This document shows, piece after piece, positions 1,197 through 58,537 of a DNA stretch of 64,000 bases. The translations under genes were made by a program, and so were the position numbers. Origin of the DNA: a virus; the IMG/VR virus record IMGVR_UViG_3300032287_003113, positions 62,001 through 126,000 of that record; one strand, 5' to 3'. The notes under the pieces are model-generated. The model had not been told where the DNA came from. It saw only the letters and a program-made list of their open reading frames with translations, and searched no databases. Position 1 is the stretch's first letter; each line of letters starts with the position of its first letter.

Positions 1197-1754
1197 ATGA
1201 AAATAGCCATTACCGGACATACCCTGGGAATTGGAAAAGCCTTGGCAGAAGTATATCAACAACACGGACATGCTGTAGTTGGGTTTAGTCGATCCACAGG
1301 TCACGACATTTCGACTATTGATGGTCGCACACGTATTATTACAGAATCAGCCGATTGTGATTTATTTTTCAACAATGCTCATGCCGACTTTTCACAATGT
1401 GATTTATTATTTGAGTTATGGATGTCTTGGAAAAATCAAAAAAAATATATTGTAAACATTTCATCTGCTCACAGCGTAAAATGGGTATATTTTTTAAAAG
1501 ATCAGGTCAGTGATATCAAGTATTGTAGCGTTAAAAAAGCACTAGAGGAATCTGCAGAATTTTTGTGGAACCAATTGGATTGGCCCGCAGTATCAATCGT
1601 TTCTCCGTGTCGTACAGATACTCCCAGAGTAGCACATAGAGATTGGAGTAACAAAGTTGATCCGACGGAATTTGCTAACCTGGTATATACCACGTTGATT
1701 CAGAATAATTTTAGAGTGCAGAGATTAAGCCTGGCCAACAGACCCATCGATTAG
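1197..1754 (+). CDS. short-chain dehydrogenase/reductase-like protein
   Basis: The 185-residue protein begins with the Rossmann dinucleotide-binding motif TGHTLGIG (residues 6-13), has NNAH at 59-62 (the SDR NNAG motif), a catalytic serine position in NISS (87-90) and YxxxK as Y109-CSV-K113. The active-site residues therefore look intact and NAD(P)-dependent oxidoreductase chemistry is plausible, although the protein is shorter than typical SDRs of about 250 residues. The substrate cannot be deduced. A good Shine-Dalgarno (AAAGGA) precedes the ATG. It follows the HNH gene and overlaps the 3' end of the next minus-strand gene by 4 bp. It is likely an accessory metabolic or nucleotide-sugar gene. 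Confidence 0.75.
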   Translation: MKIAITGHTLGIGKALAEVYQQHGHAVVGFSRSTGHDISTIDGRTRIITESADCDLFFNNAHADFSQCDLLFELWMSWKNQKKYIVNISSAHSVKWVYFLKDQVSDIKYCSVKKALEESAEFLWNQLDWPAVSIVSPCRTDTPRVAHRDWSNKVDPTEFANLVYTTLIQNNFRVQRLSLANRPID

Positions 1755-2146
1755 TTGTTGTTAGGGAAACTTCTGGGACGATACTCAGGATGTTTGGTTA
1801 GATATTCTTCTACCTTGTCACGCAGGCTACCTGTCATATAAGGCAAACTAAAATTAATCAAGAACCATAGATCAGTTCCAGGCATGACATGATATTCTTT
1901 TAATAGGTCATTGCGTTCTTTGGCGGTATAACTGATGTTACTGCCCACAGGACTCTGTATGCCTGCTTCGGCAGCTTGTGGTACTGTGTTATGACCGGTG
2001 TACATGCCAGCACCAGCTTCTAGCAAGCCTGTTATCCCAGCAAGACGTTTAATTTCTGCCAGATCGTTTGTATCCATGACCGCATCAGCGTCGCCTGATT
2101 CCCCAGGCAATACAAAGTCCGCTTGTGTTATGCGATACTGTTTCAT
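1751..2146 (-). CDS. uncharacterised protein with IKRLAGI motif
   Basis: A 131-residue protein of unknown function. Residues about 29-39 read DLAEIKRLAGI, a motif that recurs as MKRLAGLN at the C-terminus of the scaffold gp22 and as LAKLAGL in the 613-residue protein at 3.4-5.2 kb. It also contains SPVG, similar to the SPV segment near the C-termini of neighbouring small proteins. Its start overlaps the stop of the next upstream minus-strand gene by 4 bp (ATGA-type coupling), so it is the last gene of that transcript. The shared motifs and location suggest a head-internal or prohead-associated protein; that is inference only. Confidence 0.6.
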   Translation of the reverse strand: MKQYRITQADFVLPGESGDADAVMDTNDLAEIKRLAGITGLLEAGAGMYTGHNTVPQAAEAGIQSPVGSNISYTAKERNDLLKEYHVMPGTDLWFLINFSLPYMTGSLRDKVEEYLTKHPEYRPRSFPNNN

Positions 2147-2490
2147 TTTAGTTTACGGATAGGCCCACGTGCTGTTACCGGGCTTTGATTGTTAACAATA
2201 TCTAATTCTTTTGATTCTTTGCCGGTGTTGTTTCTACTGGTGTAGCCCATGTTTTTGGCTGCACCTTGTATTATTTCACGCTCAGCGTCGGTATAAGCCA
2301 CTGTTACTAATTCTGGGCCAGTTGGGCCTTCGGTGTCTGTGTCACGATGTGGTTGTGCTGCCATGCTTAGACCAAATCTATAAGCGGCATACGGGTTGTT
2401 ATTGGTTTCTGGCCAACTGGCTAGATCAGGGATTGCGTTTATCGCAGCTTTGCGAAACTTACTTTCCTGGACAATTTCGACAATTTTCAT
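2143..2490 (-). CDS. putative internal head protein with capsid-targeting-like leader (paralogue 1)
   Basis: A 115-residue protein beginning MKIVEIVQES, closely resembling the N-terminal capsid-targeting sequence of T4 internal proteins (MKTYQEFIAEA), which is cleaved after Glu by the prohead protease gp21. The body is paralogous to the adjacent upstream gene: both share an AIxxIPxLxxW segment, NNxxYxAYRxG, a YTDAE/YSEAD segment and a C-terminal SPV-x2-(R/Q)GPIRK tail. Its ends overlap the neighbouring genes by 4 bp each, so it is translationally coupled. Function is unknown; packaging into the head is inferred from the leader. Confidence 0.62.
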   Translation of the reverse strand: MKIVEIVQESKFRKAAINAIPDLASWPETNNNPYAAYRFGLSMAAQPHRDTDTEGPTGPELVTVAYTDAEREIIQGAAKNMGYTSRNNTGKESKELDIVNNQSPVTARGPIRKLK

Positions 2491-2861
2491 TTTGGTTTAC
2501 GGATAGGACCTTGAGCTTTAACTGGACTCTTGATGTTAATCAAATCTGTTTCAAACGATCCATCACCGGATTGTTGTTCGGGTGTTATCCCTAGATAATT
2601 CTGTGCAGCACGGATTTTATCATTGTCGGCTTCGCTGTAACCAATGGTAGTGAATCTTCCGCCAATGGGTCCGTAGGGTTTCAATGGTAGGTCAGGTGCA
2701 CCAGCCAATGCAATACCATATCGATAGGCACCGTAGGCATTGTTGTTGTTGTCTAGTTCGTCCCAGGTTTTCAAATTTGGGATAGCACGTATGGCACTGG
2801 GACGCAGTTTTGCACGTCCTGTTTTTGCCTGAGCTTCTTGGATGATTTCTGTTATTTTCAT
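2487..2861 (-). CDS. putative internal head protein with capsid-targeting-like leader (paralogue 2)
   Basis: The preferred start is the ATG at 2861, giving MKITEIIQEA and 124 residues. This start matches its paralogue downstream and lies 1 bp past the stop of the preceding gene; an in-frame ATG at 2933 would add 24 residues overlapping that gene. IIQE followed by A fits the gp21 cleavage rule (I/L-x-E before A/G). The rest shares the NNNNAYGAYRYG segment and the SPVKAQGPIRKPK tail with the 2143-2490 gene, so the two look like a tandem duplication. No enzymatic motif is visible. Confidence 0.62.
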   Translation of the reverse strand: MKITEIIQEAQAKTGRAKLRPSAIRAIPNLKTWDELDNNNNAYGAYRYGIALAGAPDLPLKPYGPIGGRFTTIGYSEADNDKIRAAQNYLGITPEQQSGDGSFETDLINIKSPVKAQGPIRKPK

Positions 2862-2862
2862 A

Positions 2863-3366
2863 TTACCAGGCCCTGCATGACCAATAACGTGCTTTGGTGC
2901 GTGGACCAGGATTGGCACAGTTGTGTCTAGCACGGAAGCTCTTTCGACGTTTTGGATTAGATTTTTTAATCTTCATGGTTTTGTCGCCAAAATTTACTTT
3001 GACTACTTTGCCAGTTTTGGGATTCTTTACGTACACCTTGGATTTTTTAACATCGCCCTTCATGGGACGACCCAACGGAACTTCACGGCCTTGATATTTG
3101 GCTTCAGGTACGTCATCTTCTTCTACTGCTTCTTCTTCTGAATGAAGATTGATGTGATCGTAGTGTGAGCTGTGATCTCTTGAGTAAGTTTCTAATAGAG
3201 AAACTACAGAATCTGTGCCGGCAATTACAATACCGTCTTCCACGATGGCAATGACTTCAGATTCAATCACTTCTGTTGGACTTAATTCAAGATCAAACAA
3301 ATCGCCCACAATTGGATTGTTGTGGGCGTGTTCTGCGTCAGAGACATAGTCTTTGAAGCTTTTCAT
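2863..3366 (-). CDS. conserved phage protein with basic RARHNC...YWSC C-terminus
   Basis: A 167-residue protein with an N-terminal half of acidic segments (MKSFKDYVSDAEHA, then an EEEAVEEDD patch) and a strongly basic, conserved C-terminal half. That half includes KSKVYVKNPKTGKVVKVNFGD, KKSNPKRRKSFRARHNC and TKARYWSC. The basic half recurs in many T4-like aquatic phages as an uncharacterised family (I believe DUF5872, unverified). MKSFKDYVSD may also be a capsid-targeting-like leader. Its start overlaps the stop of the upstream 613-residue gene (TAATG). The charge pattern would suit nucleic-acid contact inside the head; function is unknown. Confidence 0.65.
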   Translation of the reverse strand: MKSFKDYVSDAEHAHNNPIVGDLFDLELSPTEVIESEVIAIVEDGIVIAGTDSVVSLLETYSRDHSSHYDHINLHSEEEAVEEDDVPEAKYQGREVPLGRPMKGDVKKSKVYVKNPKTGKVVKVNFGDKTMKIKKSNPKRRKSFRARHNCANPGPRTKARYWSCRAW

Positions 3367-5207
3367 TAGTTGACTTTCTTAATACTCTCGTATTCAGCAG
3401 CTAATTGAGCTTCCAATGAAAGTGTTGCTTCGCTTACACGGTTACCTTTGTTGGTAAAAGGGTTTGCGGCCTTGTTGGCAGTGGCAGGATCTTGACTCTT
3501 TTCACGATTCATGTCGTCACCTTGTGTGGTGATTGTTTTGATACTGGCATACTTGGGACGAGGCTTGTTGACTGCTTCGGGAGCATCAGCAACATCAACC
3601 TTAGCTTCATCAATGTCTTTGGTTTTGATAGCATTGGTGCCAGGAATCTTGTCGCCAATTGCGACATCGTCGTCTGCTAGCCCCGCTGTGAATGCGTTGC
3701 CTTCGTTGGGTTCTTCAGTGATTTCATCTGTGTTGAAAATTTGACCAAATGCATTGAACTTGTCTTTGCCTGACTTCTCTGCAGCAGCATCTTGTTGTTT
3801 GATATATTCGCCACGACTGACTTCGCTTAGTCCAGCCAATTTGGCCAGTTCATCCAGTTCAGACGCTAGTGAATCTTCTTCGTAGTAGTTACGACCTTGA
3901 CCTTTTAACAATGCTGATTTGCCTGGGATTTGACTTGCTGGCAAGTTGCCTGGAATACCCATTGGTGTCTTAGGAGCATCTTTAACGTGTGCAAACGGAT
4001 CAGGGCGATCAAATTGGTCCATTTTACTGGGCACTTGTGCGGCTTCGTCAGCGACCATTTTGCCATGATAACCCTTGATCTCCATACAGTCACGTAACAA
4101 CTCACTGCAATGACCTGTTTCTTTAAACACTTTCATGTCGTTACTGAGTTCAGCCAACATTTCGTCAACTGTCTGATGTTTTTCTTTTAACAAGTTAGCA
4201 AAGTTTACACCTTCAGTAAGTCTATGTGCTAGATTGTCCATGCTTTCTGCCACTGATTTTTTGGAATCTTTTTTTGCAACTGTTTTTTCAGCATCTGGTT
4301 TCACACGACCGAATGGATCATGACCCATTTTGTTTTTGCTGGAGAATGGCAAACTGTCTTTGCTACTTTTCTCTCCGGTACTGTGTTTGCTTGGACGACC
4401 GCGGCCACGCTTCTCACCTGTGTCGGCTTTCTTGGCATGCTTGCGTGGACGACCACGCTTGCCTTTGTTTTCATCATCTTTGTCTTCGTCATCATCACTT
4501 TGATAACCAGGATAATCTTTTTTAGTATGACGGGTCACACCATCTTTGTGACTGACTTCGCCGCCTTTGTGTGTGGTTGCTTTTTCTTCAAAAAATCTTT
4601 CGTCTTGCAACAGTTTATCTACTTGGCTTGTGGAGATATTGAACTCGTCGGCCACTTGCTCAATGGCTTCTTCTGGTTCCATTTCATAACCTTTTTGCTG
4701 ATAAAAAGTATCATTTAGTTGTGCCAATCGAGCACGGATTTTTTTCACTAACTCAACTGTTGGTTTTACTTTGACTTCTTCCATCTTGGTATGTTCACAA
4801 CTACCTTCGGTCATGCCACATTCGTTGCATGTGCCTTCTCCAACGTGTTGCGGTAAACCTTTGTGCTTGGTAGCGGCAAAGTCCGTGGCATCTTTTTTGC
4901 CCATTGATTTGGCTACCTTGGCTACAGCTGGACTGGCGGCCTTAGAACCTTTTTGTGCGGCGTGAACCATGCCCATGAATTTTTGTTGAGCTTGGCTAAC
5001 TGCCTTCTCTTCAATTTTACTTTTGGCAAATTGTTCAGCTAGGCGTTGCTGTACTGAATCAACTCCAGCAAGGATACTACCTTGTGCTTCAACGCTTTCG
5101 CGGATTTCTTTTACAAGAGCAAAACGCTTTTCTTCTGCGGTTGGCTTGAGTGCTTCTAGTTTGCCTAGAATACTGTAGATGTTATCGTGTGAATGATTGT
5201 TGCTCAT
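3366..5207 (-). CDS. large charged protein with two AT-hooks, putative DNA-binding head protein
   Basis: The 613-residue protein is rich in charged and low-complexity sequence. It contains two AT-hook cores, KRGRPRKH (residues 250-257) and KRGRGRPSKH (266-275), preceded by an acidic run. There is a possible metal-binding cluster C127-x2-C130-x6-C137-x-H139 and a coiled-coil-prone N-terminal 100 residues. ELDELAKLAGL in the C-terminal part matches the RLAGL motif found in gp22 and in the gene at 1751-2146. AT-hooks bind the AT-rich minor groove. It sits among genes for putative packaged proteins, downstream of a gene with a capsid-targeting-like leader. Binding of packaged or host DNA is inferred; there is no catalytic domain. 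Confidence 0.65.
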   Translation of the reverse strand: MSNNHSHDNIYSILGKLEALKPTAEEKRFALVKEIRESVEAQGSILAGVDSVQQRLAEQFAKSKIEEKAVSQAQQKFMGMVHAAQKGSKAASPAVAKVAKSMGKKDATDFAATKHKGLPQHVGEGTCNECGMTEGSCEHTKMEEVKVKPTVELVKKIRARLAQLNDTFYQQKGYEMEPEEAIEQVADEFNISTSQVDKLLQDERFFEEKATTHKGGEVSHKDGVTRHTKKDYPGYQSDDDEDKDDENKGKRGRPRKHAKKADTGEKRGRGRPSKHSTGEKSSKDSLPFSSKNKMGHDPFGRVKPDAEKTVAKKDSKKSVAESMDNLAHRLTEGVNFANLLKEKHQTVDEMLAELSNDMKVFKETGHCSELLRDCMEIKGYHGKMVADEAAQVPSKMDQFDRPDPFAHVKDAPKTPMGIPGNLPASQIPGKSALLKGQGRNYYEEDSLASELDELAKLAGLSEVSRGEYIKQQDAAAEKSGKDKFNAFGQIFNTDEITEEPNEGNAFTAGLADDDVAIGDKIPGTNAIKTKDIDEAKVDVADAPEAVNKPRPKYASIKTITTQGDDMNREKSQDPATANKAANPFTNKGNRVSEATLSLEAQLAAEYESIKKVN

Positions 5208-5209
5208 GT

Positions 5210-5794
5210 TTACTTTCCTTTTGCCTTGTGTACTTTGTTTTGGTTTGTGCCAACTGGACTGGTGGTGCCAACATTTTCTGCTGTCATTACGCCAGTGGTT
5301 TTTTCAGTAGCGGCAAAATCAAATTTGCGACTTTCCAATTCTTTGATCAAACTACCAATACGAAGTTGTCCGGCTAACTCTTGACCGCCTTCGTCAGCTT
5401 TTAACTCTTCTTCATCCAGCAAAGCACCTTCATGATCTTTGCCACGTGCTTCTGCTTCGTCTGTGTTGACTGCGTCACCTAAGGTACGTACACAGATCCA
5501 GTCTGGATTCAATTGAGCACGTTCTTTGATTGTTTGGCGGATCTGCGGAACTGTGACAGGGTATGCAACTTTGATGTCAAATGTCCAACACTCGCAAGGA
5601 CCCCATTGTGGGAATTCACGGTGTTCTTGTATGGGCAAACTTTTAACAGCACTGACGCTTTCTAACTGATAAGTTTCCAGTGCATGTTTAATGCGGTCCA
5701 TTACTTCCCCTTTGGGGTTAATGGTAGCTAGTTTGATACGAAACTCGTATGGCTTGTTTAATTCGGCGATGTAAGTTTGGAATGGTTTCATCAT
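5210..5794 (-). CDS. putative internal/prohead protein with T4 capsid-targeting-like leader
   Basis: The 194-residue protein starts MMKPFQTYIAEL; the second Met gives MKPFQTYIAE, a striking match to the T4 capsid-targeting sequence MKTYQEFIAE. A compact domain follows (residues about 15-105, with alternating hydrophobic strands and PCECWTFDIKVAYPVT), then an acidic linker and a C-terminal tail containing TTSPVGTNQNK and a basic end. It would be packaged with the core and trimmed by gp21. It has its own consensus late promoter (TATAAATA, 5812-5819) and an AGGA ribosome-binding site, and heads the transcript running down to 1751. No enzymatic function is recognised. Confidence 0.65.
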   Translation of the reverse strand: MMKPFQTYIAELNKPYEFRIKLATINPKGEVMDRIKHALETYQLESVSAVKSLPIQEHREFPQWGPCECWTFDIKVAYPVTVPQIRQTIKERAQLNPDWICVRTLGDAVNTDEAEARGKDHEGALLDEEELKADEGGQELAGQLRIGSLIKELESRKFDFAATEKTTGVMTAENVGTTSPVGTNQNKVHKAKGK

Positions 5795-5811
5795 TATAAT
5801 CCTATATTCAG

Positions 5812-5819
5812 TATTTATA
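5812..5819 (-). promoter_or_regulatory. late promoter TATAAATA (internal-protein operon)
   Basis: Exact T4-type late box on the minus strand, 17 nt upstream of the first ATG of the 5210-5794 gene, with AGGA between. Confidence 0.75.
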
Positions 5820-6297
5820 CTTTTTTGTTTAATATTTGTTTTAGCAATTCGTTGCGATCCAGCACAACTCCTTGCCCGTCTATGGCTGCTTCCACTGGAT
5901 CTTTGGCATCTTTTTTGATCTGGTGATCCAGCTTGGCTTTGGCCAACTGTAACTGTACCATTTTTAACTTTTTATCTAGCTTGGCAGTTTTGGCTGTGAT
6001 AGCGTGTCCCAACATTACACCAGCTGTTTGTAAGATAACACCCGAAAAGCGTGGCTCTACATTCATGCCCAGATCTATCAGATCTTCAGCTTTGCTCTGT
6101 GCCAACTGTGCCAATTCATCCAGCTCGGTATCACCGGTGTCTAAATTGTGTACTGTGGGTAGTGCAGCATCAATCTTATCTATAGCAAGATTAACTTCGG
6201 TGATTATGTCGCGGTTTTCTTCAATTATCTGCTCGGCTTCTTCGGCAGTAGCATCCGTGGATGGTAGGTTAAACAGCTCTTCTAATTTTTTAGTCAT
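5815..6297 (-). CDS. gp16: terminase small subunit gp16
   Basis: The 160-residue protein has the layout of T4 gp16: a short acidic N-terminal region (MTKKLEELFNLPS), a central pair of long helices (residues about 75-130; MNVEPRFSGVILQTAGVMLGH then a KLDKKLKMVQLQLAKAK coiled coil) and a flexible C-terminus. gp16 forms rings that regulate gp17 ATPase and recognise DNA for packaging. It lies between the internal-protein cassette and gp4, with the stop at 5815 inside the late promoter of the downstream gene. An AATAAATA box sits exactly 5 nt upstream of its ATG, implying a leaderless late message. The assignment rests on length, helix layout and synteny, as this family diverges quickly. Confidence 0.75.
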   Translation of the reverse strand: MTKKLEELFNLPSTDATAEEAEQIIEENRDIITEVNLAIDKIDAALPTVHNLDTGDTELDELAQLAQSKAEDLIDLGMNVEPRFSGVILQTAGVMLGHAITAKTAKLDKKLKMVQLQLAKAKLDHQIKKDAKDPVEAAIDGQGVVLDRNELLKQILNKKV

Positions 6298-6302
6298 AGC
6301 AA

Positions 6303-6310
6303 TATTTATT
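6303..6310 (-). promoter_or_regulatory. late promoter AATAAATA, leaderless position (gp16)
   Basis: AATAAATA ends 5 nt before the gp16 ATG. By the T4 rule (box -13 to -6) transcription would start at the A of ATG. Confidence 0.55.
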
Positions 6311-6740
6311 TGCTACGGCCTTGGTGGAAAATCATATCTTCGGTGACAACTCTAAAGGTCATTCCGTGTGCTCGAGCCCAAGCACGAGCAGCCTCCCATT
6401 TGGCCATGTTCAATATGGCACTGGCTTGATCACGTATGTTTTTGGCGCCTTCTAGCGTGGTTTCTTTTTTGGGTTTGACTTCGACCAATTCAGCACGTTG
6501 GGCACCGCCAGCATCTTGATAGGTAATCAAAAAGTCTGGAACATAAATGGTATTTTTACCTGTCAACGGATTGCGATAGTTGATATGTACTGCCTCGCTA
6601 GCCCAGTTGATTATGCTGGGATTGTTGTCACAGAATTGCATAAAAACAAATTCCCAGCTGCTTCTATATGTAGGCGTTTTATTGCCCACATACTTGGCAG
6701 GGTTCTGTATTTGAAATTTGCCTTGCGAGTATTTGCTCAT
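6306..6740 (-). CDS. gp4: head completion protein gp4
   Basis: The 144-residue protein closely follows T4 gp4: SKYSQGKFQIQNPAKYVG at the N-terminus, YRSSWEFVFMQFCDNNPSIINWASE, then VPDFLITYQ and VEVKPKK, a nuclease-fold motif of the PD-(D/E)xK type (D...ExK), and KWEAARAWARAHG near the end. gp4 acts after packaging, when full heads are stabilised and made ready for tail joining. Its start overlaps the stop of the next upstream gene by 4 bp and its stop lies 8 bp before gp16, so it is part of a tight minus-strand series. Confidence 0.92.
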   Translation of the reverse strand: MSKYSQGKFQIQNPAKYVGNKTPTYRSSWEFVFMQFCDNNPSIINWASEAVHINYRNPLTGKNTIYVPDFLITYQDAGGAQRAELVEVKPKKETTLEGAKNIRDQASAILNMAKWEAARAWARAHGMTFRVVTEDMIFHQGRSK

Positions 6741-7120
6741 ATCAATACTGTGCGAGAAACCAGGGGATTAGTATTGTTTGTTCGTTTGACGCCAATGGTA
6801 CTGGTAGGTGCTCGATTGGCGTTTAAGAATGCAGCAAGATAGTTGTTGAGTTCACCAGCTGGTAATTTTTGAAACTCGCTCAGCACCATCATTGGATCCA
6901 AGTTTTGTGCTTGTGCTGTGTACAACACCACCGCAGCTAAATTTTTAGCTGAAGTTTTGTTCTGTGTGCGTTTTTCAAAGAAAGCTACAATAGCATCATC
7001 AGCTGGCCCTGACGTAAATTCTTTAGAATAGAAATTATTAAAATATTTTCTAGCGTCATTGACAGCAACCGAAGTGTCTGGTGGTGCTAAATTAGTTGCG
7101 GTAGAGATTTGATTATTCAA
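6737..7120 (-). CDS. conserved T4-like structural-region protein, unknown function
   Basis: A 127-residue protein with a conserved-looking core: ARKYFNNFYSKEFTSG, DDAIVAFFEKRTQNKTSAKNLAAVV and a C-terminal LNNYLAAFLNANRAPTSTIGV followed by VSRTVLI. Similar proteins occur beside gp4 and tail genes in aquatic T4-like phages without an assigned role. It overlaps both neighbours by 4 bp, suggesting translation coupled with the 492-residue baseplate-like gene upstream and gp4 downstream. A head-tail joining or tail-associated role is a guess from position. Confidence 0.6.
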   Translation of the reverse strand: MNNQISTATNLAPPDTSVAVNDARKYFNNFYSKEFTSGPADDAIVAFFEKRTQNKTSAKNLAAVVLYTAQAQNLDPMMVLSEFQKLPAGELNNYLAAFLNANRAPTSTIGVKRTNNTNPLVSRTVLI

Positions 7121-8595
7121 AATAGACCCCCATAGGAAGCTTCACTTAATGCCGCTGTACTAAAACTGGCACTAAATTCGTTAGCAATGTCTCTTGTTAA
7201 ATCACCAAATGCCGTTGAAATATCGCCGACTAAACTTCCAACTTGGTCCTTGATAAATCCTGATGCTTGATCAATCAATGGTTGTGTTAGCTCAGTTACA
7301 TAGGAACCAACCTGTTGCATAGCATAGGTGGCTGCCATGTTGGTCACTGTGGCCAGGGCCGCTTGAGGGTTTTGTATAGCTGACGCAATTAGATTAATAG
7401 TGGCTCCGCCATTGGGCCCAAGACCTGCGGCTAGTCCACCAATCAGTCCATTGGCCGCGGAGCTTACTACGCCGCCCACGATATTAGACGCTTGTGCTTG
7501 TATCTGTTGCTGTATTTGTGCGGCACTGGTAATGCCCTGTGTTAAACTGCCAAGACTTGGCACACTGAATCCACCGGCATTGACTCCGCCCACACCTGCA
7601 GAAATTGATGTGCCAGTACCAAACAATCTTCCAAACACACTGGGTTGTGCTGATGTTGTACCGGCACCAAAATTTATGGGTGCGGTTGCATCGGTGTATA
7701 GTGGACTAATGCCTGCCAGGTCGGTGATTTGATCTGGCGCACGGTTATATCCACCTTGGCCATTGTCTACCAGGTCTGTTCCGTCTCTTGGAGCAATAGG
7801 ACTTGGCATCTTGTCATAGTGCAAATCAATAAATCCGCCGGCGTTGTTGGCAGTGGTATAGCCTGTTAGATATTTTACTGTTTCATACTGTATGGTCATT
7901 TCGTGACTTAACAAACTGGTTTCGCCATTCACATGATCACCGTGTTTGAACGCAGTGATAGTGGGATTGACCAATTGGTATTCACTAAAATTCTTTTGAT
8001 ACAAGCTGTAAATTCTTATAGCTTGTATGTATTGATAGGCCTGTTGCCCATTTAGGTTGGTACCAACTGTGGGACGTCTTGGACTATAACCCCAATCAAA
8101 GCTGGGACGACTGGCATACTTGTGTGGAGTATTATAGGTGGCGTCAGCATAGTCGGGGTCACGAAAAAAGAAACTGTAGTAGTCATACCAGAAATTTCTT
8201 ACATTGTCGCTTTGGTCATCGTGGAATGATATTTGCACAGGATCATACTTGATGCTATTTTGCACAATGTTTTTACGATTGTAAGCATTGTGTGTTTTGG
8301 TGTCGATAGTAAACTTTGGTAGCGTGGCACTTTTGACCAACATGCCTAATTCTCTTGCTGGAGCATTGCCACTACCCATGCTTTTGTATTGCAAGGTTTG
8401 ATCGGAGATATTTGTAATCAATGGATTAAAATCAAATTCCACATAAAACAAAAATCCATATTTGGGACTTAGTCGGAAATTGTCGTCGGTGAATATTCTT
8501 GCCGCATGGCGGTAGTCATACATTTGCCCGCGAGGATTTGTAACTGTATTTGGGTAATTAACTTGAGACGATGATAAATGTTTATTAATGCTCAT
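7117..8595 (-). CDS. tube-like baseplate/tail protein (gp48/gp54-type)
   Basis: The 492-residue protein has an N-terminal tube-type domain. GFLFYVEFDFNPL, LVKSATLPKFTIDTKTHNAYNRKN and VQISFHDDQSDNVRNFWYDYY mirror the strand-loop pattern of tail tube and tube-initiator proteins. After about residue 260 the sequence becomes Gly/Ala/Ser-rich and helical with little similarity to anything recognised. It lies just downstream of the tail tube gene. T4 gp48 and gp54 cap the baseplate and start tube growth, which is the likely role. A GATAAATA late box ends 5 nt before this ATG, so the message may be leaderless; the in-frame ATG at 8523 (MYDYRHAARIF) is an alternative start. Confidence 0.65.
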   Translation of the reverse strand: MSINKHLSSSQVNYPNTVTNPRGQMYDYRHAARIFTDDNFRLSPKYGFLFYVEFDFNPLITNISDQTLQYKSMGSGNAPARELGMLVKSATLPKFTIDTKTHNAYNRKNIVQNSIKYDPVQISFHDDQSDNVRNFWYDYYSFFFRDPDYADATYNTPHKYASRPSFDWGYSPRRPTVGTNLNGQQAYQYIQAIRIYSLYQKNFSEYQLVNPTITAFKHGDHVNGETSLLSHEMTIQYETVKYLTGYTTANNAGGFIDLHYDKMPSPIAPRDGTDLVDNGQGGYNRAPDQITDLAGISPLYTDATAPINFGAGTTSAQPSVFGRLFGTGTSISAGVGGVNAGGFSVPSLGSLTQGITSAAQIQQQIQAQASNIVGGVVSSAANGLIGGLAAGLGPNGGATINLIASAIQNPQAALATVTNMAATYAMQQVGSYVTELTQPLIDQASGFIKDQVGSLVGDISTAFGDLTRDIANEFSASFSTAALSEASYGGLF

Positions 8596-8600
8596 ACTAA

Positions 8601-8608
8601 TATTTATC
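8601..8608 (-). promoter_or_regulatory. late promoter GATAAATA, leaderless position (tube-like gene)
   Basis: GATAAATA ends exactly 5 nt before the ATG at 8595 and lies just past the gp19 terminator, so it restarts transcription there. Confidence 0.6.
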
Positions 8609-8616
8609 CAATAAAA

Positions 8617-8641
8617 AACCCGAGGTTTTTAAGCTCGGGTT
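8617..8641 (-). terminator. intrinsic terminator after gp19
   Basis: AACCCGAG pairs with CTCGGGTT (9-nt loop). On the minus strand the 3' arm runs into TTTTTT. It lies 20 nt past the gp19 stop. Confidence 0.85.
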
Positions 8642-8660
8642 AGTTGATAAAATTTATCAA

Positions 8661-9272
8661 TTAGTTAACGCTGTCACCTCTTGGGAAAGTAACAGTAGTA
8701 CCAACACCGCCACCGATTGTTTGTACAGCATTGTCAAAGCGGATGTTGACTGCAATTTGCACAGGATCATTACTGTTATAAGCCATGTCGCCATAGTCAA
8801 CTGAACTTAGGAAACAACCTTCTAGGTCCCACTGCTCAAGAATCACCGGAGTTGTTTGACCATTGCCACCGTCTAGGATGTCGAATTCCATACGGAACTT
8901 GTAATCAACACCACTTGGTGCAGAGCTTTGTTCCATAAAGTCAAACTGCTTCTGGATCTGTTCACCAATAAGTTTACTGACTTGACCAGTTGCATCATCA
9001 CGGAAGTTGATTGTGGTTTCTTGCCACTCTGGCTTGCCTTGCAAGTATACTTTGCTGTTATAAACATCAATAGTAACAGGTGCAAATGTTACGTTTGGAC
9101 GCTTGATATCCACTACTTGCTTGGTTAGTTCTGTGGTTGGGTTAGTTACACCAAGATTATAAAAGCTCGCACGGAAGCGATACTTTAACTTGGGCATCAA
9201 AAGACCTTGGCTTGATGCACTTTGGTCATTTGATAGTGGAACTGTAAATTTGCTTAAACTTGCTACGGCCAT
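8661..9272 (-). CDS. gp19: tail tube protein gp19
   Basis: The 203-residue protein matches T4-like tail tube subunits in length and pattern: LKYRFRASFYNLG, VVDIKRPNVTFAPVTIDVYNSKVYL, TTINFRDDATGQVSKLIGEQIQKQFDF, MEFDILDGG and EQWDLEGCFLSSVDYGDMAYNSNDPVQIAVNIRFDNA. It forms the stacked hexameric inner tube of the contractile tail. It is a monocistronic-looking gene: its own late promoter (9291-9298), a strong AGGAG ribosome-binding site and an intrinsic terminator directly after the stop (8617-8641), as expected for a major virion protein. The sheath gene follows upstream after 33 bp. Confidence 0.93.
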   Translation of the reverse strand: MAVASLSKFTVPLSNDQSASSQGLLMPKLKYRFRASFYNLGVTNPTTELTKQVVDIKRPNVTFAPVTIDVYNSKVYLQGKPEWQETTINFRDDATGQVSKLIGEQIQKQFDFMEQSSAPSGVDYKFRMEFDILDGGNGQTTPVILEQWDLEGCFLSSVDYGDMAYNSNDPVQIAVNIRFDNAVQTIGGGVGTTVTFPRGDSVN

Positions 9273-9290
9273 GTTATTCTCCTATACTCT

Positions 9291-17608: not shown

Positions 17609-18984
17609 TGCCAGTTCAATTTGCCTATGATGGACAAATACGCCGTTTTGTCATGCAGTTTGTACGCATGGTATCAAACTTCCAAGTAGAATTTGGAAAG
17701 AATGCCAGCGGTAATCGTACCTTGCAAACTGTTCCTGTGTACTATGGAGATATCAGTCGCCAGGCTGCAATGATTTTAAACAATGGTAGCGAAAATACAC
17801 TCAATGCTGTACCGGCTATGGCTTGTTACATTAGTGGATTAACATATGATCAAAGCAGATTACAAAATCCCTACTACGAAGGTGTGGTTAGAATCAGAGA
17901 ACGCACCTACAACGATGTGGATCAAGAGTACGAACAAAGTCAAGATGGTATCTATACTGTAGAACGACTGATGCCAGCTCCATATAAACTAACTATGAAG
18001 TTGGACATATGGACCAGCAACACAGAACAAAAGCATCAGATGATTGAACAAATGATGCCCTTGTTCAACCCCGGCCTAGAAATACAAAGCACAGACAACT
18101 ATGTAGACTGGTCTAGTCTAAGTGTTGTGCTGTTGACTGATGTGCAATACTCTAGTAGAACTGTGCCGCAAGGCGGAGAAGAAAATATTGATGTGGCTAC
18201 ACTCACATTTGAAATGCCTATATGGCTCAGTCTACCTGCCAAAGTCAAGAAGATGGGTGTTGTTGCACAAATCATTGCCAGTATCTACGACGCACAAGGT
18301 GACCTGAGTCCCGATGTAGTGTTTGCAACACAGGGTTTAATGAGTCAACAAAGATTTACTCCGATGAATTATGAATTGGTCTATGTGGGCAACACCCTGA
18401 CTTTGTATAAAAACAATGCTACCGAAGCTGAAGATGGTGTGGTTTATGGCACCAAGGTGCGTTGGGCCAACCTGGTTAATTTATACGGCAAACTGACCAA
18501 TGGTATCAGCGAAGTTAGATTGACTTTTGCTTATCCAGACGGTCCGCACGAAATTGCTGGTACTGTTGCGTTTAGTCCCACAGATGAAACACAGTTGTTG
18601 TTTACTCCATTTGAAGCCACATTGCCGGCCAATACCTTGGATGCTGTTGATGCCATCATTGATCCAAGAAACGTTACTGTAGACAGCAATATATTAAGTC
18701 CTGCTGCAGGTACAAGATACTTGATATTGAATTCCATTGGCGACATTGCCACTGAAAGTCCTGTTGCTTGGGCTGGTGCTCCAGGTACCAACTTGATCGC
18801 TCGAGCCAACGACATCATTGAATGGAATGGTTCATATTGGATAGTAGCTTTTGACAGTAGAGAGCCTGCTGTGCAGTATGTATCCAACCTAACTACCACT
18901 GTGCAATATCGCTGGACCGGATCAGAGTGGGTCAAGAGTTATGAAGGCCTATACGGATCGGGCGAGTGGAGTTTGGTACTGTAA
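17608..18984 (+). CDS. gp15: tail sheath stabiliser/tail completion protein gp15, enlarged
   Basis: The 458-residue protein keeps the gp15 core: YDGQIRRFVMQFVRMVSNF, VPVYYGDISRQAAM, AMACYISGLTYDQSRLQNP, PAPYKLTMKLDIWTSN, QMIEQMMPLFNPGLEI and an LTFEMPIWL strand. T4 gp15 (272 residues) caps the tail and stabilises the contracted sheath at the neck. The C-terminal 200 residues are additional and contain segments such as ARANDIIEWNGSYWIVAF and VQYRWTGSEW, the surface-exposed type found in the fibres and sheath here. Start and stop overlap gp14 and the NUDIX gene by one base each (TAATG), so all three are translationally coupled. Confidence 0.88.
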   Translation: MPVQFAYDGQIRRFVMQFVRMVSNFQVEFGKNASGNRTLQTVPVYYGDISRQAAMILNNGSENTLNAVPAMACYISGLTYDQSRLQNPYYEGVVRIRERTYNDVDQEYEQSQDGIYTVERLMPAPYKLTMKLDIWTSNTEQKHQMIEQMMPLFNPGLEIQSTDNYVDWSSLSVVLLTDVQYSSRTVPQGGEENIDVATLTFEMPIWLSLPAKVKKMGVVAQIIASIYDAQGDLSPDVVFATQGLMSQQRFTPMNYELVYVGNTLTLYKNNATEAEDGVVYGTKVRWANLVNLYGKLTNGISEVRLTFAYPDGPHEIAGTVAFSPTDETQLLFTPFEATLPANTLDAVDAIIDPRNVTVDSNILSPAAGTRYLILNSIGDIATESPVAWAGAPGTNLIARANDIIEWNGSYWIVAFDSREPAVQYVSNLTTTVQYRWTGSEWVKSYEGLYGSGEWSLVL

Positions 18985-19412
18985 TGGCCGCACACACCGA
19001 GGGCGTTGGTGCATTAATTTACGCTCGATCATCTAATCGTTACTTGTTCTTGTTGAGAAACAAAAGCCGACATGCTGGATCCTGGGGAATTGTGGGTGGA
19101 AAAATTGAAACAGGTGAGACTGTCATACACGGGCTAGTTAGAGAAATACGTGAAGAAATTGGTGTTGACTATTCTGCTCGTAAATTTATTCCATTAGAAA
19201 CGTTTACCGCAGACAATCGTAAATTTGTTTATTATACATTTGTGGTCAGTGTAGAAGAAGAATTTGTGCCACGCTTGAATGATGAGCATCGTGGATATTG
19301 CTGGGTAGGATTAAATGATCATCCAATGCCGTTGCATCCAGGACTTTGGCGAAGTTTTAATTTTGACATTGTCAAAAAGAAAATTAAAACTTTAGAATCA
19401 ATCTTAAAATAA
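18984..19412 (+). CDS. NUDIX hydrolase
   Basis: The preferred ATG at 18984 overlaps the gp15 stop as TAATG and gives 142 residues; an upstream GTG at 18966 is less likely. The NUDIX box spans residues 39-61, with G39, E44, R53-E54, E57-E58 and G60, so the metal-binding glutamates are all present. The family cleaves nucleoside diphosphates linked to another moiety, such as oxidised dNTPs, NAD, ADP-ribose, nucleotide sugars or capped RNA; the substrate is not predictable here. It is the third gene of the gp14-gp15 late operon, an unusual place for a housecleaning enzyme. Confidence 0.9.
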   Translation: MAAHTEGVGALIYARSSNRYLFLLRNKSRHAGSWGIVGGKIETGETVIHGLVREIREEIGVDYSARKFIPLETFTADNRKFVYYTFVVSVEEEFVPRLNDEHRGYCWVGLNDHPMPLHPGLWRSFNFDIVKKKIKTLESILK

Positions 19413-42542: not shown

Positions 42543-43721
42543 TTACTGGAACGATAGGTTTGATACAGAGATCTCACCAACGTAGTCACCAGCATTACCT
42601 AGCGAAGACGCTGTGTTTGTCAACTCTACATAACCATAACGTGTCATAAATGATACGACTGGTTCGAATGTAGATGGATCTAGAACAACACCAGAACTCA
42701 TCAATGGGATATATGGGCAATAGAACGCAGCTGCATCAGCTTCGCTTGAACCCTTATAACCAACCAATACAGCCTGACTGTCGTTTGCATAACCGTCAAC
42801 ATATACCTTCATTGCACCGTTCAATGTACCAACAAACTTGGTGTTTGTAGGAGCTTCGAATGTACCTTCTGTTGTACGAGCAAATGCACTTGTTGTAGCA
42901 CTTTGTAGTACTGTCAAAGCAGCTGGACTTACAACTGCCCAGTTACCAGCACCACGACGTGTACGCTGAGCGATCTTGTTAGCAACACGGTTAACTAGAA
43001 CTGCCAAAGCGGCATGCTCATCACCAACGAATGTAGCTGTACCAGAAACGGCAGCTTGGTCATATGCTTCATCAGTAGCGGCAAGAGCACGTAGGGAACC
43101 AAGAATCTCTTGATCAATCTCTACAGTAATTTCTTGTGCTAGGGCAGCCATAATTTCTGCCTCAACATCCAAACCGTGCATAGACTGTGCGTCTTGTGCA
43201 GCTTCAAATGTCCAACGAGCACTTAACTTACGTGTTTTAGCTTCTACAACTTGTTTCAAAATCTGAACGTTAATACGGTTACCAGCAACACCTTCTAGTG
43301 TACTAGTTGTATTAGCCATACCAGTAGAGTTACTACCAGAGTATGCTGTTGCAATTTTGAATGGGCTCAATGCCTCATCACCAGCTGTTGTGCTTGTCTG
43401 ATATGCAGATGAATCTGTAACAGAATCAGCATAACGTACACGCAATGTGTGGATTTGAGCTACTGGACCTGTCATTGGCTGTACACCAACGATTTCGTTG
43501 GCGATAACTGTTGGCATTACACGACGGATAACTGGTAGAATTACACGGTTTAGTGTAGCTACGTTACCTGCTTGTGTAGAGCCAGCTGTTGCGTTCTCAG
43601 CCAACATTTTGCGTGTATTCTCAAGGATTACACCCATTGTAGTTCTTTTAGAACCATTTAGACCTTCTAACAGGGCTTCTTTTGTTTCGCCCCAACGGCC
43701 TTCTAATAATGCTTGTGTCAT
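42543..43721 (-). CDS. gp23: major capsid protein gp23
   Basis: The 392-residue protein matches T4-like major capsid proteins: LNRVILPVIRRVMPTVIANEIVGVQPMTGP, IHTLRVRYAD, KLSARWTFEAAQDAQSMHGLDVEAE, EITVEIDQEIL, RTRRGAGNWAVVSP and a C-terminal YCPYIPLMSSGVVLDPSTFEPVVSFMTRYG. It is shorter than T4 gp23 (521). Two LLE-G sites in the first 20 residues and LAEN near residue 40 are candidate gp21 cleavage positions, so the propeptide is short. It has a GAGGAA ribosome-binding site and a strong terminator (42486-42509), and follows gp22 in T4 order. Confidence 0.96.
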   Translation of the reverse strand: MTQALLEGRWGETKEALLEGLNGSKRTTMGVILENTRKMLAENATAGSTQAGNVATLNRVILPVIRRVMPTVIANEIVGVQPMTGPVAQIHTLRVRYADSVTDSSAYQTSTTAGDEALSPFKIATAYSGSNSTGMANTTSTLEGVAGNRINVQILKQVVEAKTRKLSARWTFEAAQDAQSMHGLDVEAEIMAALAQEITVEIDQEILGSLRALAATDEAYDQAAVSGTATFVGDEHAALAVLVNRVANKIAQRTRRGAGNWAVVSPAALTVLQSATTSAFARTTEGTFEAPTNTKFVGTLNGAMKVYVDGYANDSQAVLVGYKGSSEADAAAFYCPYIPLMSSGVVLDPSTFEPVVSFMTRYGYVELTNTASSLGNAGDYVGEISVSNLSFQ

Positions 43722-43745: not shown

Positions 43746-44864
43746 TTAATTAAGCCCTGCTAAACGTTTCATTTCATAAACATTGGACATTACGTCTTTT
43801 GTTTCTGAAGCTTCAACGGCAGTTTTAGCAGTTTTATCACCAGTTACTACTTGACGACTCTCTGTCAAAACAGCAGCTTTTGGAGCGGCTTCTTTAACAG
43901 CAGAATTGTTTAGTACAGCTGGTAGATACTTTTCATATGCGGACTGTAGCTTATCAGTCTGCACACTCTCGAGTAGGTCACGCATGATTGCTGACTTCTC
44001 TTTGTTCAAAGGTTTCAACATTTCTGCAAGACGTTCTTTGCGTTCTGCTGATTCTTTGATAATACGAATTTCTGTTTCTTTTGATTCAACCAAAGCTTTC
44101 TTATCTTCAATTGCTGATACTGCTTCAGACAATTTCTGAGTTACCATGTCCACTGTGGATTGTAACTCGCGGATTTGTTTGTTCTCATTTAAGTGAGTAA
44201 CAGCAAATTCGCTTGCGAATGCTTCATATAGACGACGACCAAACATGTTCTCGCGAGCAACTTGGATGTCTTCTTTTAGTTGAGTCAGTTCTGACTCTAA
44301 CGAACTGGTTACGGCCTCTTTAACAGCCTCAGCAGATTGTTTTACAAATTTGGCTTGCAGTTCAGCTAATTTAGCTTTACCTTCAGCGACTAGACGAACT
44401 TTAGTTTCCACTACAGCTTTCTTGTCTGCTTCAAATTCTTTGATTTCTTCTGCCAATGCACGGATTGTAAACTGTTCAAGTTTGCTGATAGCATTCTCGT
44501 AAGTTTTACGATCTGCACGTAGTTCTTTGATTTCTTCAGCTAGTTTACTAACTAAGAAATTGTCAAACTTACTTGCACTTTCAACCATTTGCTTTTTAAA
44601 TGCAACACGGTCTTCGGCTAATTGTTGTTTTTCGTCTGCGAACTCTTGCAGTTCAGCAGTGAGAGACTCTGTTACCATTTTGTCTAGAGCTTCAACCATT
44701 ACTGCTTTGTCATGTTGATAACGTTGAGCAAATTCTTCGCGTAATTCTGCACGAACTTGTTCTTTGGCTTCAGTAATGCGTGATTCCCAAGCTTCAGCAA
44801 TAGCTGTCTTGGTCTCTTCATTAATGATTCCGTTATCCAACAATGGTTTGATAGCATCTAACAT
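43746..44864 (-). CDS. gp22: prohead scaffold protein gp22
   Basis: The 372-residue, Lys/Glu/Ala-rich protein is predicted to be almost entirely coiled coil (ESRITEAKEQVRAELREEFAQRYQ and repeated AEEIKELRADRKTYENAI-like units). It lies between protease gp21 and capsid gp23, as in T4, where gp22 forms the internal core removed by gp21. Three near-repeats of the unit 'LAEEIKEL/FEADKK' are visible between residues 100 and 175. The C-terminus, NVYEMKRLAGLN, shares the RLAGL motif with two proteins of the internal-protein cassette. It begins with ATG at 44864 behind an AGGAG ribosome-binding site. Confidence 0.88.
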   Translation of the reverse strand: MLDAIKPLLDNGIINEETKTAIAEAWESRITEAKEQVRAELREEFAQRYQHDKAVMVEALDKMVTESLTAELQEFADEKQQLAEDRVAFKKQMVESASKFDNFLVSKLAEEIKELRADRKTYENAISKLEQFTIRALAEEIKEFEADKKAVVETKVRLVAEGKAKLAELQAKFVKQSAEAVKEAVTSSLESELTQLKEDIQVARENMFGRRLYEAFASEFAVTHLNENKQIRELQSTVDMVTQKLSEAVSAIEDKKALVESKETEIRIIKESAERKERLAEMLKPLNKEKSAIMRDLLESVQTDKLQSAYEKYLPAVLNNSAVKEAAPKAAVLTESRQVVTGDKTAKTAVEASETKDVMSNVYEMKRLAGLN

Positions 44865-44876
44865 TGGATATTTCTC

Positions 44877-45509
44877 CTATAGTTTTAAATCTTTGATCAA
44901 GGCTGCAATGCCCTCTTTCAGGTACTTCTGTACTTTTTGATCTTGAGCGGCTTCACGTGCCGTTTCAAATACCTTAGCACCACCACGCATGTTCATCAAG
45001 CCTTCATAGATGGCTTTTGGATACGCATGAGGAGCACTAGGTTGTGCTACGATGTCTACGGTAATGATTTCAAAATCACTAACGTGTCCACTTCCTTCAT
45101 TGACATTACCTGATCCACGCGATGATACACCTAGCTTAACACCAGAGGTTATCATGGCTTCTACTAGTTGTCCCATTGGGGTTGGCAATACCTTTAATTT
45201 ACCACGTCCTGTTGGACCATCCATCCACATCTTTTCAATCATGTGGCTTACGCGGTCTAGGTTAATCTTTAAATCATCTGGATGATCTACTTCACCCAAC
45301 ACAGAATAACCTTCATTGATTTGTTTGTTGATGGTATTAACAGCTTTTTCTATTTCATGGACAGGGTATACTCGTTCATTGGCGTTCTTTACTCCGCCTT
45401 CGATGAATATACCCTCCATTTTTAGAGATTTCTTGCCATTCTCGTCGACGGACTCAACAATCAAGCCCGCCCGATCAAATGTAAGATTCTCTTTTAGGTA
45501 CAAAGCCAT
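44877..45509 (-). CDS. gp21: prohead core protease gp21
   Basis: The 210-residue serine protease of the herpesvirus/T4 assemblin type has its catalytic His in VLGEVDHPDD (H76), the nucleophile in VSSRGSG (S129/S130) and a conserved end segment FEIITVDIVAQPSAP with D152. Substrates would be the scaffold gp22, the capsid propeptide, core proteins and the leaders of the putative internal proteins at 2.1-5.8 kb, cleaved after Glu in (I/L)-x-E. It sits in T4 order between the acidic core protein and gp22. A CGTAAATA late-box variant lies at 45524-45531. Confidence 0.93.
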   Translation of the reverse strand: MALYLKENLTFDRAGLIVESVDENGKKSLKMEGIFIEGGVKNANERVYPVHEIEKAVNTINKQINEGYSVLGEVDHPDDLKINLDRVSHMIEKMWMDGPTGRGKLKVLPTPMGQLVEAMITSGVKLGVSSRGSGNVNEGSGHVSDFEIITVDIVAQPSAPHAYPKAIYEGLMNMRGGAKVFETAREAAQDQKVQKYLKEGIAALIKDLKL

Positions 45510-45522
45510 TTGTAGTTCCTAA

Positions 45523-46473
45523 TTATTTACGAACTGGGCTCTTGTCGTTTGTAGGCACGCTACCATCGGTAGTTTGACCTTCGCCTGACTTGGCTGTTTC
45601 TTTGGTTTTAAAAGAGTTACCAGCTTTTCCACCTGGAACATTGATGTTACCAGATTTGATTTCTTGTGGCTTTTCGCTTGATGGAGCACTTGTTCCGTCT
45701 GGGTTGCTTTCGCCGCCCTTGGTCTTAACTGCTGTACCACCAAAGTCAGCACCAGGACCAGTTACAGACTTGGTGTTAACACTTGTCTTTTTACCAGATC
45801 CAGCAACTGCGTCGCCTTCGGCTGCATCACCAGCACCACCGTAGATATCACCAATGCGGTCTACATACTCACGCATTAATTCAGAAGTAGATAGTTTGCG
45901 TGAATTGTCACGTGATTCCTTGGCTTCTTCTTTTTTATCTTCTTTGTCTTCTTCGTCGTCGCAATCTTCTTCATCGGACTCTTCGGCTTCCATCATGCCC
46001 ATTTCGGCTATTTTTGGCTCTTCGGCACCCATGTCGTCCATTGCTGGCATTTCTGCAGACATTTCGTCTGAATCATTGTCGCCCATGATTTCGTCAAACT
46101 TAGCTAATAGCTCGTCTAACTTGGCATCAATGTTCATGATTTTGTCGTCTTCGGCTTCTTCGTCATGACCAACTTCGGCTGGCATGTCGCCTGTCATTTC
46201 ACCATCGTCTTCACCATCTGGGTCAAGACTAAATTCTTCTTCGCCTTCTTCATCAGCTTCGCCCACTGCTTCTTCGCCAGCTAGTTGATTTGTTAGTTCT
46301 TCAACTTGCTCACCAGCAACAGGTCCGCCCATGTTTTCTTCGACTTGCTCTTCGTCCATAATGGACTCATAGATGTCACGGCTTTTTTCTACTACGATTG
46401 TGTGAAATAATTCACGTGCTTTTTGATCTTCATCGTTAATGATGTATTCAATTAATTTTTCAAACTTGTTCAT
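45523..46473 (-). CDS. acidic prohead core protein (gp68 position)
   Basis: The 316-residue protein is extremely acidic between residues 40 and 195 (long Glu/Asp runs), with a conserved-looking N-terminus DEDQKARELFHTIVVEKSRDIYE and a Gly/Ser/Lys-rich C-terminal 120 residues ending DKSPVRK. It lies where T4 carries the core genes 67 and 68 between portal and protease, and is probably part of the scaffold core degraded by gp21. The terminal SPVRK resembles the SPV tails of the internal-protein candidates. TGTAAATA (46504-46511) and AAGGAG precede the start. Confidence 0.7.
   Translation of the reverse strand: MNKFEKLIEYIINDEDQKARELFHTIVVEKSRDIYESIMDEEQVEENMGGPVAGEQVEELTNQLAGEEAVGEADEEGEEEFSLDPDGEDDGEMTGDMPAEVGHDEEAEDDKIMNIDAKLDELLAKFDEIMGDNDSDEMSAEMPAMDDMGAEEPKIAEMGMMEAEESDEEDCDDEEDKEDKKEEAKESRDNSRKLSTSELMREYVDRIGDIYGGAGDAAEGDAVAGSGKKTSVNTKSVTGPGADFGGTAVKTKGGESNPDGTSAPSSEKPQEIKSGNINVPGGKAGNSFKTKETAKSGEGQTTDGSVPTNDKSPVRK
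45524..45531 (-). promoter_or_regulatory. late promoter variant CGTAAATA (gp21)
   Basis: The box ends 14 nt before the gp21 ATG, with TAGGAA between. It has two mismatches to consensus. Confidence 0.4.
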
Positions 46474-46503
46474 GAGAACTCCTTATATAAATGGCTTGTA
46501 TAT

Positions 46504-46511
46504 TATTTACA
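46504..46511 (-). promoter_or_regulatory. late promoter variant TGTAAATA (acidic core protein)
   Basis: The box lies 30 nt before the ATG at 46473, with an AAGGAG ribosome-binding site. Confidence 0.5.
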
Positions 46512-46568
46512 AATATACGCAGTTTTTGGGGTTAAATGGGTAGTTTTTGAAGAATATTGACGGAATAA

Positions 46569-46802
46569 TTACATTCCGAGAGGGGCGCCACCAGGTTCTG
46601 CAGGTGGTTGATATTGTTTTGCTACTGCTTCCAGCTTTTTTTCATGCTCAAGTTTGCGTACATCGTGGGCTTGTCTTAGCTGGTTTAGGTGTGATAGAGT
46701 CAAGCGAGTTTTGCGGCTATCCGACATCGTAAGCGTACTTTGGTCTGCTTTTTCGTCGTGATAACCATGAGGTGCTGGGTCAAATAGTTCACTAATAATC
46801 AT
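46569..46802 (-). CDS. small prohead core protein (gp67 position)
   Basis: The 77-residue protein, MIISELFDPAPHGYHDEKADQS, then DSRKTRLTLSHLNQLRQAHDVRKLEHEKKLEAV, has a conserved basic helical middle. It lies directly after the portal gene, as T4 gp67 does. Similar short proteins occur at this spot in aquatic T4-like phages. The first ten residues (MIISELFDPA) may serve as a targeting leader like those of the internal proteins. GTTAAATA lies exactly 5 nt upstream of its ATG and no Shine-Dalgarno is visible. The gp67 assignment rests on position and size only. Confidence 0.62.
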   Translation of the reverse strand: MIISELFDPAPHGYHDEKADQSTLTMSDSRKTRLTLSHLNQLRQAHDVRKLEHEKKLEAVAKQYQPPAEPGGAPLGM

Positions 46803-48540: not shown

Positions 48541-48548
48541 TATTTATA
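48541..48548 (-). promoter_or_regulatory. late promoter TATAAATA (gp20)
   Basis: Exact late box 20 nt before the portal ATG. Confidence 0.75.
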
Positions 48549-50986: not shown

Positions 50987-50994
50987 TATAAATA
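50987..50994 (+). promoter_or_regulatory. late promoter TATAAATA (gp26)
   Basis: Exact plus-strand late box 37 nt before gp26, lying inside a CCTATA-AATA-TATAGG inverted repeat. Confidence 0.75.
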
Positions 50995-58529: not shown

Positions 58530-58537
58530 TATAAATA
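58530..58537 (+). promoter_or_regulatory. late promoter TATAAATA (baseplate operon)
   Basis: Exact plus-strand late box 21 nt before the ATG at 58559, with AGGAAG between. Confidence 0.75.

Follow-up and report, generated by a model that had tools for sequence, protein, structure and literature searches.

A cluster of six genes on the minus strand of the genome of an uncultured giant T4-like phage (positions 1751-5791) probably encodes late-expressed internal head proteins that bear capsid-targeting leaders of the T4 type. The cluster lies in a stretch of 64,000 nucleotides, here called the window, that comprises bases 62001-126000 of the 219,879-base IMG/VR record IMGVR_UViG_3300032287_003113. 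Searched as DNA against phages, the first 8 kb gave no match, and no isolate is close to this phage. The six genes are tightly packed and operon-like, with several stop/start overlaps, and are flanked by gp4 on one side and terminase on the other. A sequence-only reading of the window had pointed to four N-termini here, MKIVEIVQES, MKITEIIQEA, MKSFKDYVSDA and MKPFQTYIAEL, as T4-like leaders. All four are present on the minus strand; the gene with the last of them starts at 5791 and not at 5794, and a fifth gene, 3366-5207, had been passed over. The genes that begin MKIVEIVQES (2143-2490) and MKITEIIQEA (2487-2861) encode small paralogs with 45% identity, so the leader genes represent three independent families and not four.

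Leaders in the cluster and across the contig

We called 205 genes across the whole 219.9-kb contig with a simple purpose-written gene caller and scored their N-termini by T4-derived rules, which took the place of a first pattern that was too tuned to the finding. The K2 rule, which combines Lys at residue 2 with [LIV]xE at residue 9 or 10, was compared with a null of 500 N-terminal shuffles. It was matched by 5 of the 205 genes (null mean 0.42, maximum 4), and three of these five lie in the six-gene cluster; allowing Asp in the rule added the 2863-3366 gene. When [KNR] was accepted at residue 2, the observed and null counts were 7 and 0.97 for the contig under study, and among T4-like phages they were 5 and 0.84 for Melnitz, 4 and 0.65 for Syn9, 7 and 1.55 for T4 and 4 and 1.19 for P-SSM2, with a weaker signal in phiM12 (3 and 1.48) and no enrichment in the control phages T5 (1 and 0.73) and SPO1 (2 and 1.32). 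A looser rule B ([LIV]xE[AGST] near residues 8-11) hardly set the T4-like phages apart from the controls. On T4, the two leader rules recover ipII, ipIII, gp21, gp22 and gp24, and on phiM12 they flag a gene situated between gp20 and gp21.

It is very improbable that the cluster shows only a chance resemblance of short N-termini. Single such N-termini do occur elsewhere in the contig, in 2 of the 199 other genes by the K2 rule, and T5 and SPO1 stand near their null rates, as chance would have it; against this explanation stand the excess in the contig with its concentration in one cluster, and the late-promoter and gp21 context described below. Conservation of the leader in many relatives led us to reject it.

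In a 24-sequence alignment of the small family, M1, E5 and E9 are invariant together with three residues of the body, the Glu9 count in this set being fixed by the search regular expression. Residues 4 and 8 vary freely, [ILV] is kept two residues before Glu9, and a spacer of variable length separates the leader from the body. Several members were found by the body pattern only, and their MRAxEF and MRIDEI types misfit the leader seed. A clade with an N-terminal extension retains [LIM][RQ]E[GASE] ahead of the body. The AlphaFold model of small protein 1 is of low confidence, with the leader region modelled as unstructured. We conclude that packaging as internal proteins, with removal of the leader after Glu9, is the likeliest fate of the small paralogs. 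They match no PHROG or Pfam family, small protein 1 has no match by tblastn against phages, and the small-family profile A3 found no match in 11 isolate records; the T4 record is without an A3 match. The start of small protein 1 was set at the ATG at 2861 and not at the upstream GTG on the basis of its relatives. The small proteins (alignments A1 and A3) also share a C-terminal tail, SPVxAR...KNKYGV or SPVxAxGPIRKxK, and the core protein at 45523-46473 likewise ends in SPVRK.

As the criterion for a capsid-targeting sequence we took an N-terminus of about 10 residues with a hydrophobic or aromatic residue at 4 and 7, [LIV] at 8 and Glu10, or the same one residue shorter. The product of 5210-5791 has the full form and those of 2487-2861 and 2143-2490 the nine-residue form; that of 2863-3366 has Asp10 in place of the Glu. 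Such leaders stand on unrelated bodies, in three families in the cluster and in further families in relatives. The T4 sequences used for comparison, MKTYQEFIAEA (IPII/IPIII) and KINELLRES (gp24), were read from the T4 record.

Prohead protease, head genes and late promoter

The window encodes gp21, as had been claimed (phrog_207, E=4e-58), and its EVDHP His and GVSSRG Ser align with those of T4 gp21 (Table 1). We detected gp21 in six of seven large contigs of relatives. In three relatives (G001, G003 and G007) the phrog_207 matches span TAG codons that lie in frame, the frames being 579-590 codons long; possibly gp21 shares a single frame with the gene that follows it, or the stop is read through.

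T4 gp21 cuts by the rule L/I-x-E (PMC9026906). The gp22-position protein contains 21 [LI]xE sites, compared with 7.6 +/- 2.3 in shuffles, and all four such sites of gp23 (7, 19, 34 and 42) fall within the first 42 of its 392 residues. This load is what would be expected if the T4 cutting rule applies here, and it fits an L/I-x-E specificity of gp21 in the phage under study.

The sequence TATAAATA is the T4 late promoter (PMC2984593). An exact copy stands upstream of the first cluster gene, and the box also precedes the portal gene. Seven of the nine copies in the contig lie at most 60 nt upstream of a called start, a location shared by 2.8% of positions. Among 44 relatives, the box is exact in 11 (null 0.25%) and has at most one mismatch in 24 (null 4.7%).

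The phrog_14802 protein and the other cluster genes

The product of 5210-5791 matches phrog_14802 (E=3.6e-5 over residues 1-151), and its membership of this family rests on the profile over most of its length and on the same gene neighbourhood. PA5oct, RaK2, Hallingskeid and PHA46 share the gene order tail sheath, tail tube, gp4, 14802, and in PA5oct the 14802 orthologue (EST35_0202) and the following gene are marked as detected by electrospray ionization tandem mass spectrometry. The gene was taken to start at its second ATG since the preceding codon varies in relatives (ATG, ACG, GAA, AAG and others) while MKxFQxYI is kept. Forty-seven close relatives have MKxFQxYIxE or a slight variant of it; in a 32-row alignment, K2, Q5 and E10 are invariant. 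The predicted structure (AlphaFold) has a leader helix at 4-11 and a ferredoxin-like domain; Foldseek returned a generic fold with ribosomal S6, PII and HPPK as the best matches (E about 1e-3), from which no functional reading follows. We regard this protein as part of the virion head; in its clade it is possibly cut after Glu10.

The product of 2863-3366 matches phrog_7595 (E=1.2e-10, residues 88-167), many relatives of which have Glu at the residue-10 place (MKTLHDYISEA, MKSFKEYLLET, MKSLREYISES). In T4 IPIII, targeting depends on residues 4 and 7 and processing on residues 8 and 10; with Asp10 the protein is still targeted but is no longer cut (PMC9026906, section 2.6). The product of 2863-3366 is accordingly predicted to be loaded but to stay uncut. 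The phrog_7595 tail (window 2863-3120; RRKSFRARHNC...KARYWSCRAW) is C-terminal in many different phage proteins, with at least 600 pattern matches, and in Melnitz it closes a cytidylyltransferase. Possibly it serves virion cargo as a second module, placed at the C-terminus.

The product of 3366-5207 matches PF11450 at residues 69-122 (E=4.4e-5) and AT_hook (E=0.0077). In the relative L173, MKKLTDYIAEAE stands immediately ahead of the DUF3008 domain, and in S-SCSM1, the virion proteome of which has been measured (PMC9602691), the annotation of a 69-aa DUF3008 protein marks it as detected in virions by mass spectrometry. The last cluster gene, 1751-2146, has a start that overlaps the stop of the 2143-2490 gene, and it adjoins the paralogs in L001 and L002 too. 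In the close relative L002, terminase comes after two opposite-strand genes past the cluster.

Several observations weigh against internal proteins with cleavable leaders. We set the leader rules knowing both T4 and the window, and some of the IMG/VR retrieval used the leader as a seed. The largest and central gene of the cluster, 3366-5207, has no leader, and gp21 was not found in G005, a relative's contig. Asp10 is shared by the 2863-3366 product and its nearest relatives. The Glu of the 14802 proteins is kept only among near relatives of 5210-5791, being absent from PA5oct (MKSFRDYYDAS), Phosso (MKNFYEYLSSV), and Hallingskeid and PHA46 (MNKLQxIL form), so cutting of the 5210-5791 product is uncertain; its post-cut residue would be Leu, unlike in T4.

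Some of these observations lend something to an explanation that we consider unlikely, namely that the N-termini stay uncut and serve ordinary structural proteins of the neck, the vertex or the inner capsid face as docking helices, which gp21 does not process and which resemble T4 leaders through shared binding to the core or portal. Besides the Leu at P1' in the window and the Asp10, PA5oct and Phosso retain the aromatic positions and not the Glu, and in the model of the 14802 protein the leader helix continues straight into the folded domain. Docking helices agree poorly with the small family, which keeps Glu9 and the [ILV] two residues before it while residue 8 varies and a variable spacer comes next, and whose leader region is modelled as unstructured; the same motif is, moreover, abundant in gp22 and gp23 of the phage under study.

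Leader-bearing proteins in other phages

Applied blindly to P-SSM2 and Syn9, the T4-derived rule flagged genes starting MKSFSQFLTETT and MKKFSAFLSEAE, respectively. The P-SSM2 gene is T4-GC190, the cytidylyltransferase of the cyanophage core, and the Syn9 gene is its counterpart. The T4-GC190 protein is present in purified S-SM1 virions (PMC3037559). An NMNAT belonging to this family was detected in the virions of S-SCSM1 (PMC9602691), and the authors of that study note that it turns up often and propose that it is likely to be carried in the virion. The detected proteins start MKKFSAFLNEAE (S-SM1) and MKSFLQFLKEAA (S-SCSM1), and in comparison with T4 MKTYQEFIAEA, residues 4, 7, 8 and 10 are kept in kind. 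The presence of leader-bearing NMNAT in cyanophage virions, seen by two groups, thus gives independent support to the view that such leaders mark virion cargo. S-SCSM1, the sole labelled-proteome test, has one leader gene among 219 examined coding sequences; this gene is virion-detected, a striking result that alone is not significant (p=0.2). The leader of the virion-borne NMNAT is not pointed out in the available parts of these two papers, and the source sections at hand do not report leader cutting for the PA5oct 14802 protein or the cyanophage NMNAT. In Synechococcus phage Bellamy (L405), the cytidylyltransferase start of gene 170 is annotated 48 nt late, which loses the leader MKSLFQFLNEA.

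We collected DUF6267 proteins by seeds that lie outside the N-terminus; of their 42 distinct N-termini, 40 show [LIV]xE at 8-12, and Phe4 is nearly constant. In the loci of relatives, a leader is borne by 44 of the 1258 other genes that lie near the query families (6.3 expected), and the leader-bearing genes there include those for DUF3008, NT5C and DUF6267 proteins. NT5C was rejected as a generally leader-bearing family: its leader is lineage-specific, and its relatives are without one. In Methylophilales phage Melnitz-3 (L235), successive genes at 4619-9282 start MQGFKTFLSEA, MINFSKYITED, MKKFSELTSELIE and MKKFSEIIEAR; the run includes DUF6267 and a cytidylyltransferase, and its sequence makes it a candidate for a packaged-protein cassette, here in an isolate.

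The sequence-only reading had also suggested early-acting proteins injected with the genome, possibly against host defences. Such injected effectors are compatible with late-expressed internal head proteins, and we hold this reading to be rather improbable. In T4, Alt and IPI enter the head by means of such leaders and go on to act in the host cell (PMC9026906), and leader-bearing NMNAT and other enzymes occur in related phages. PHROG and Pfam searches of the window proteins found no effector or anti-defence domain or homology. The small paralogs occur widely and have been duplicated along with head genes, a pattern equally in line with a role in the head. Early action and a role against host defences are supported by no result here.

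Further N-termini of this type lie outside the cluster. At contig 217392-218168 on the minus strand (L017:7392-8168), a 258-aa protein starts MKSNEFITEA and has a C-terminal DUF6321 domain; it is a candidate for another leader-bearing cargo of the same phage. At contig 44938-46668 on the minus strand (L010:6938-8668), a 576-aa protein starts MRYKQILPEA, has a weak phrog_3560 match and no Pfam family, and adjoins tRNA genes. In the T4 record AF158101, a 54-aa open reading frame at 18966-19130 on the minus strand starts MKTFKEFIKED, a near-copy of the internal protein leader.

Table 1. Genes and promoter boxes in the window; in leaders, a slash follows residue 9 or 10.
Feature	Position	Strand	Basis
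131-aa protein, last cluster gene, no leader, no family match	1751..2146	-	gene call; PHROG, Pfam searches
Small protein 2, 115 aa, paralog of small protein 1, leader MKIVEIVQE/S	2143..2490	-	alignments A1, A3
Small protein 1, 124 aa, leader MKITEIIQE/A	2487..2861	-	family alignment A3
167-aa protein, leader-like MKSFKDYVSD/A (Asp10), C-terminal phrog_7595 domain	2863..3366	-	phrog_7595
613-aa protein, DUF3008 domain and two AT-hook-like motifs, no leader	3366..5207	-	PF11450, AT_hook
phrog_14802 head/virion protein, 193 aa, leader MKPFQTYIAE/L	5210..5791	-	phrog_14802 'virion structural protein'
T4-type late promoter box TATAAATA	5812..5819	-	exact match, 21 nt upstream of first cluster gene
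gp4 head completion protein (context)	6306..6740	-	phrog_218 E=7.2e-42
gp23 major capsid protein	42543..43721	-	phrog_138 E=2.1e-99
gp22-position core/scaffold protein	43746..44864	-	phrog_10922 E=1.1e-94; between gp21 and gp23
gp21 prohead protease, predicted leader cutter	44877..45509	-	phrog_207; 38% identity to T4 gp21
Further late boxes	48541-48548, 50987-50994, 58530-58537	-, +, +	21-38 nt upstream of portal gene, genes at 51032 and 58559

Discussion

We propose that three unrelated families in the cluster, one of them duplicated, bear a capsid-targeting leader of the T4 internal protein/gp24 type. During prohead assembly the leader would dock each protein on the gp22-type core. In the small paralogs, gp21 would then cut after Glu9 of [IV]-x-E, and the small, weakly basic proteins would stay with the DNA in the head; the 2863-3366 protein would be loaded and stay uncut, and the 5210-5791 protein would possibly be cut after Glu10. 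That the proteins are packaged, cut and ejected into the host is inferred, and so is whatever they may do in the cell. Of the points free of bias, the strongest are the DUF6267 N-termini, the clade with the extended N-terminus, the blind NMNAT match, the motif load of gp22 and gp23, and the late promoter.

The description of the N-termini as T4-like capsid-targeting leaders holds in the homologues and agrees with gp21, late expression and the company of head proteins, and it is modified for MKSFKDYVSDA, which has Asp in place of the Glu. Conservation of the leader in homologues likewise holds for the small family and for the near relatives of the 14802 protein, and fails in the distant 14802 members. 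The proposed cut after Glu has its residue in three leaders; the fourth, with its Asp, is predicted to stay whole.

Likeness to T4 internal proteins IPI, IPII and IPIII extends to MK-x-[FY]-Q-x-[YF]-I-A-E of 5210-5791 compared with MKTYQEFIAE, and to small proteins, late genes and gp21. Unlike in T4, the cluster lies by gp4 and terminase and not near gene e, one member has Asp10, and the bodies are not recognisable as T4 relatives, so that homology of the mature part, which would define an internal protein homologue, is lacking. On their sequences, we class the small paralogs as probably working like internal proteins and not as their homologues. The propeptide of T4 gp24 (MAKINELLRE/S) is also close, KINELLRES matching KITEIIQEA and KIVEIVQES residue by residue, but gp24 is a shell protein of 427 aa, whereas the window proteins, at 115-124 aa, are unrelated to it. 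The 5210-5791 product is akin by profile and gene order to the phrog_14802 proteins PA5oct EST35_0202 and RaK2 ORF047, although the PA5oct protein is without the Glu cutting site. The cyanophage NMNAT/cytidylyltransferase (T4-GC190) has the same leader type (MKSFLQFLKEA...), belongs to gp21-bearing phages and is detected in virions by mass spectrometry; unlike the cluster proteins it is an enzyme, and it is absent from the cluster.

A review has suggested the leader as one way in which T4-like phages carry varied proteins (PMC9026906), and the T4 mechanism is already known; the families, the clade and the link to virion-borne NMNAT are new. In an incomplete literature collection we found no paper that makes this link. 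We lean, with some reserve, toward the view that the leader is a portable tag for virion cargo across gp21-bearing phages of the T4 superfamily, beyond T4's own internal proteins, and that it is borne by families as unrelated as NMNAT/cytidylyltransferase, DUF6267 (with a ligase-like KWDG motif), NT5C nucleotidase, DUF3008 and DUF6321. Since the tag would stand on many unrelated families, packaged and probably injected proteins of uncultured phages would be predictable from their N-termini. Virions should then yield peptides beginning just past Glu9 or Glu10, and the uncut form where this residue is Asp. If this is true, the leader would account mechanistically for the repeated and so far unexplained finding of NMNAT, an enzyme of NAD synthesis, in cyanophage virions, and the head cargo of giant and marine T4-like phages would be readable from genome sequence.

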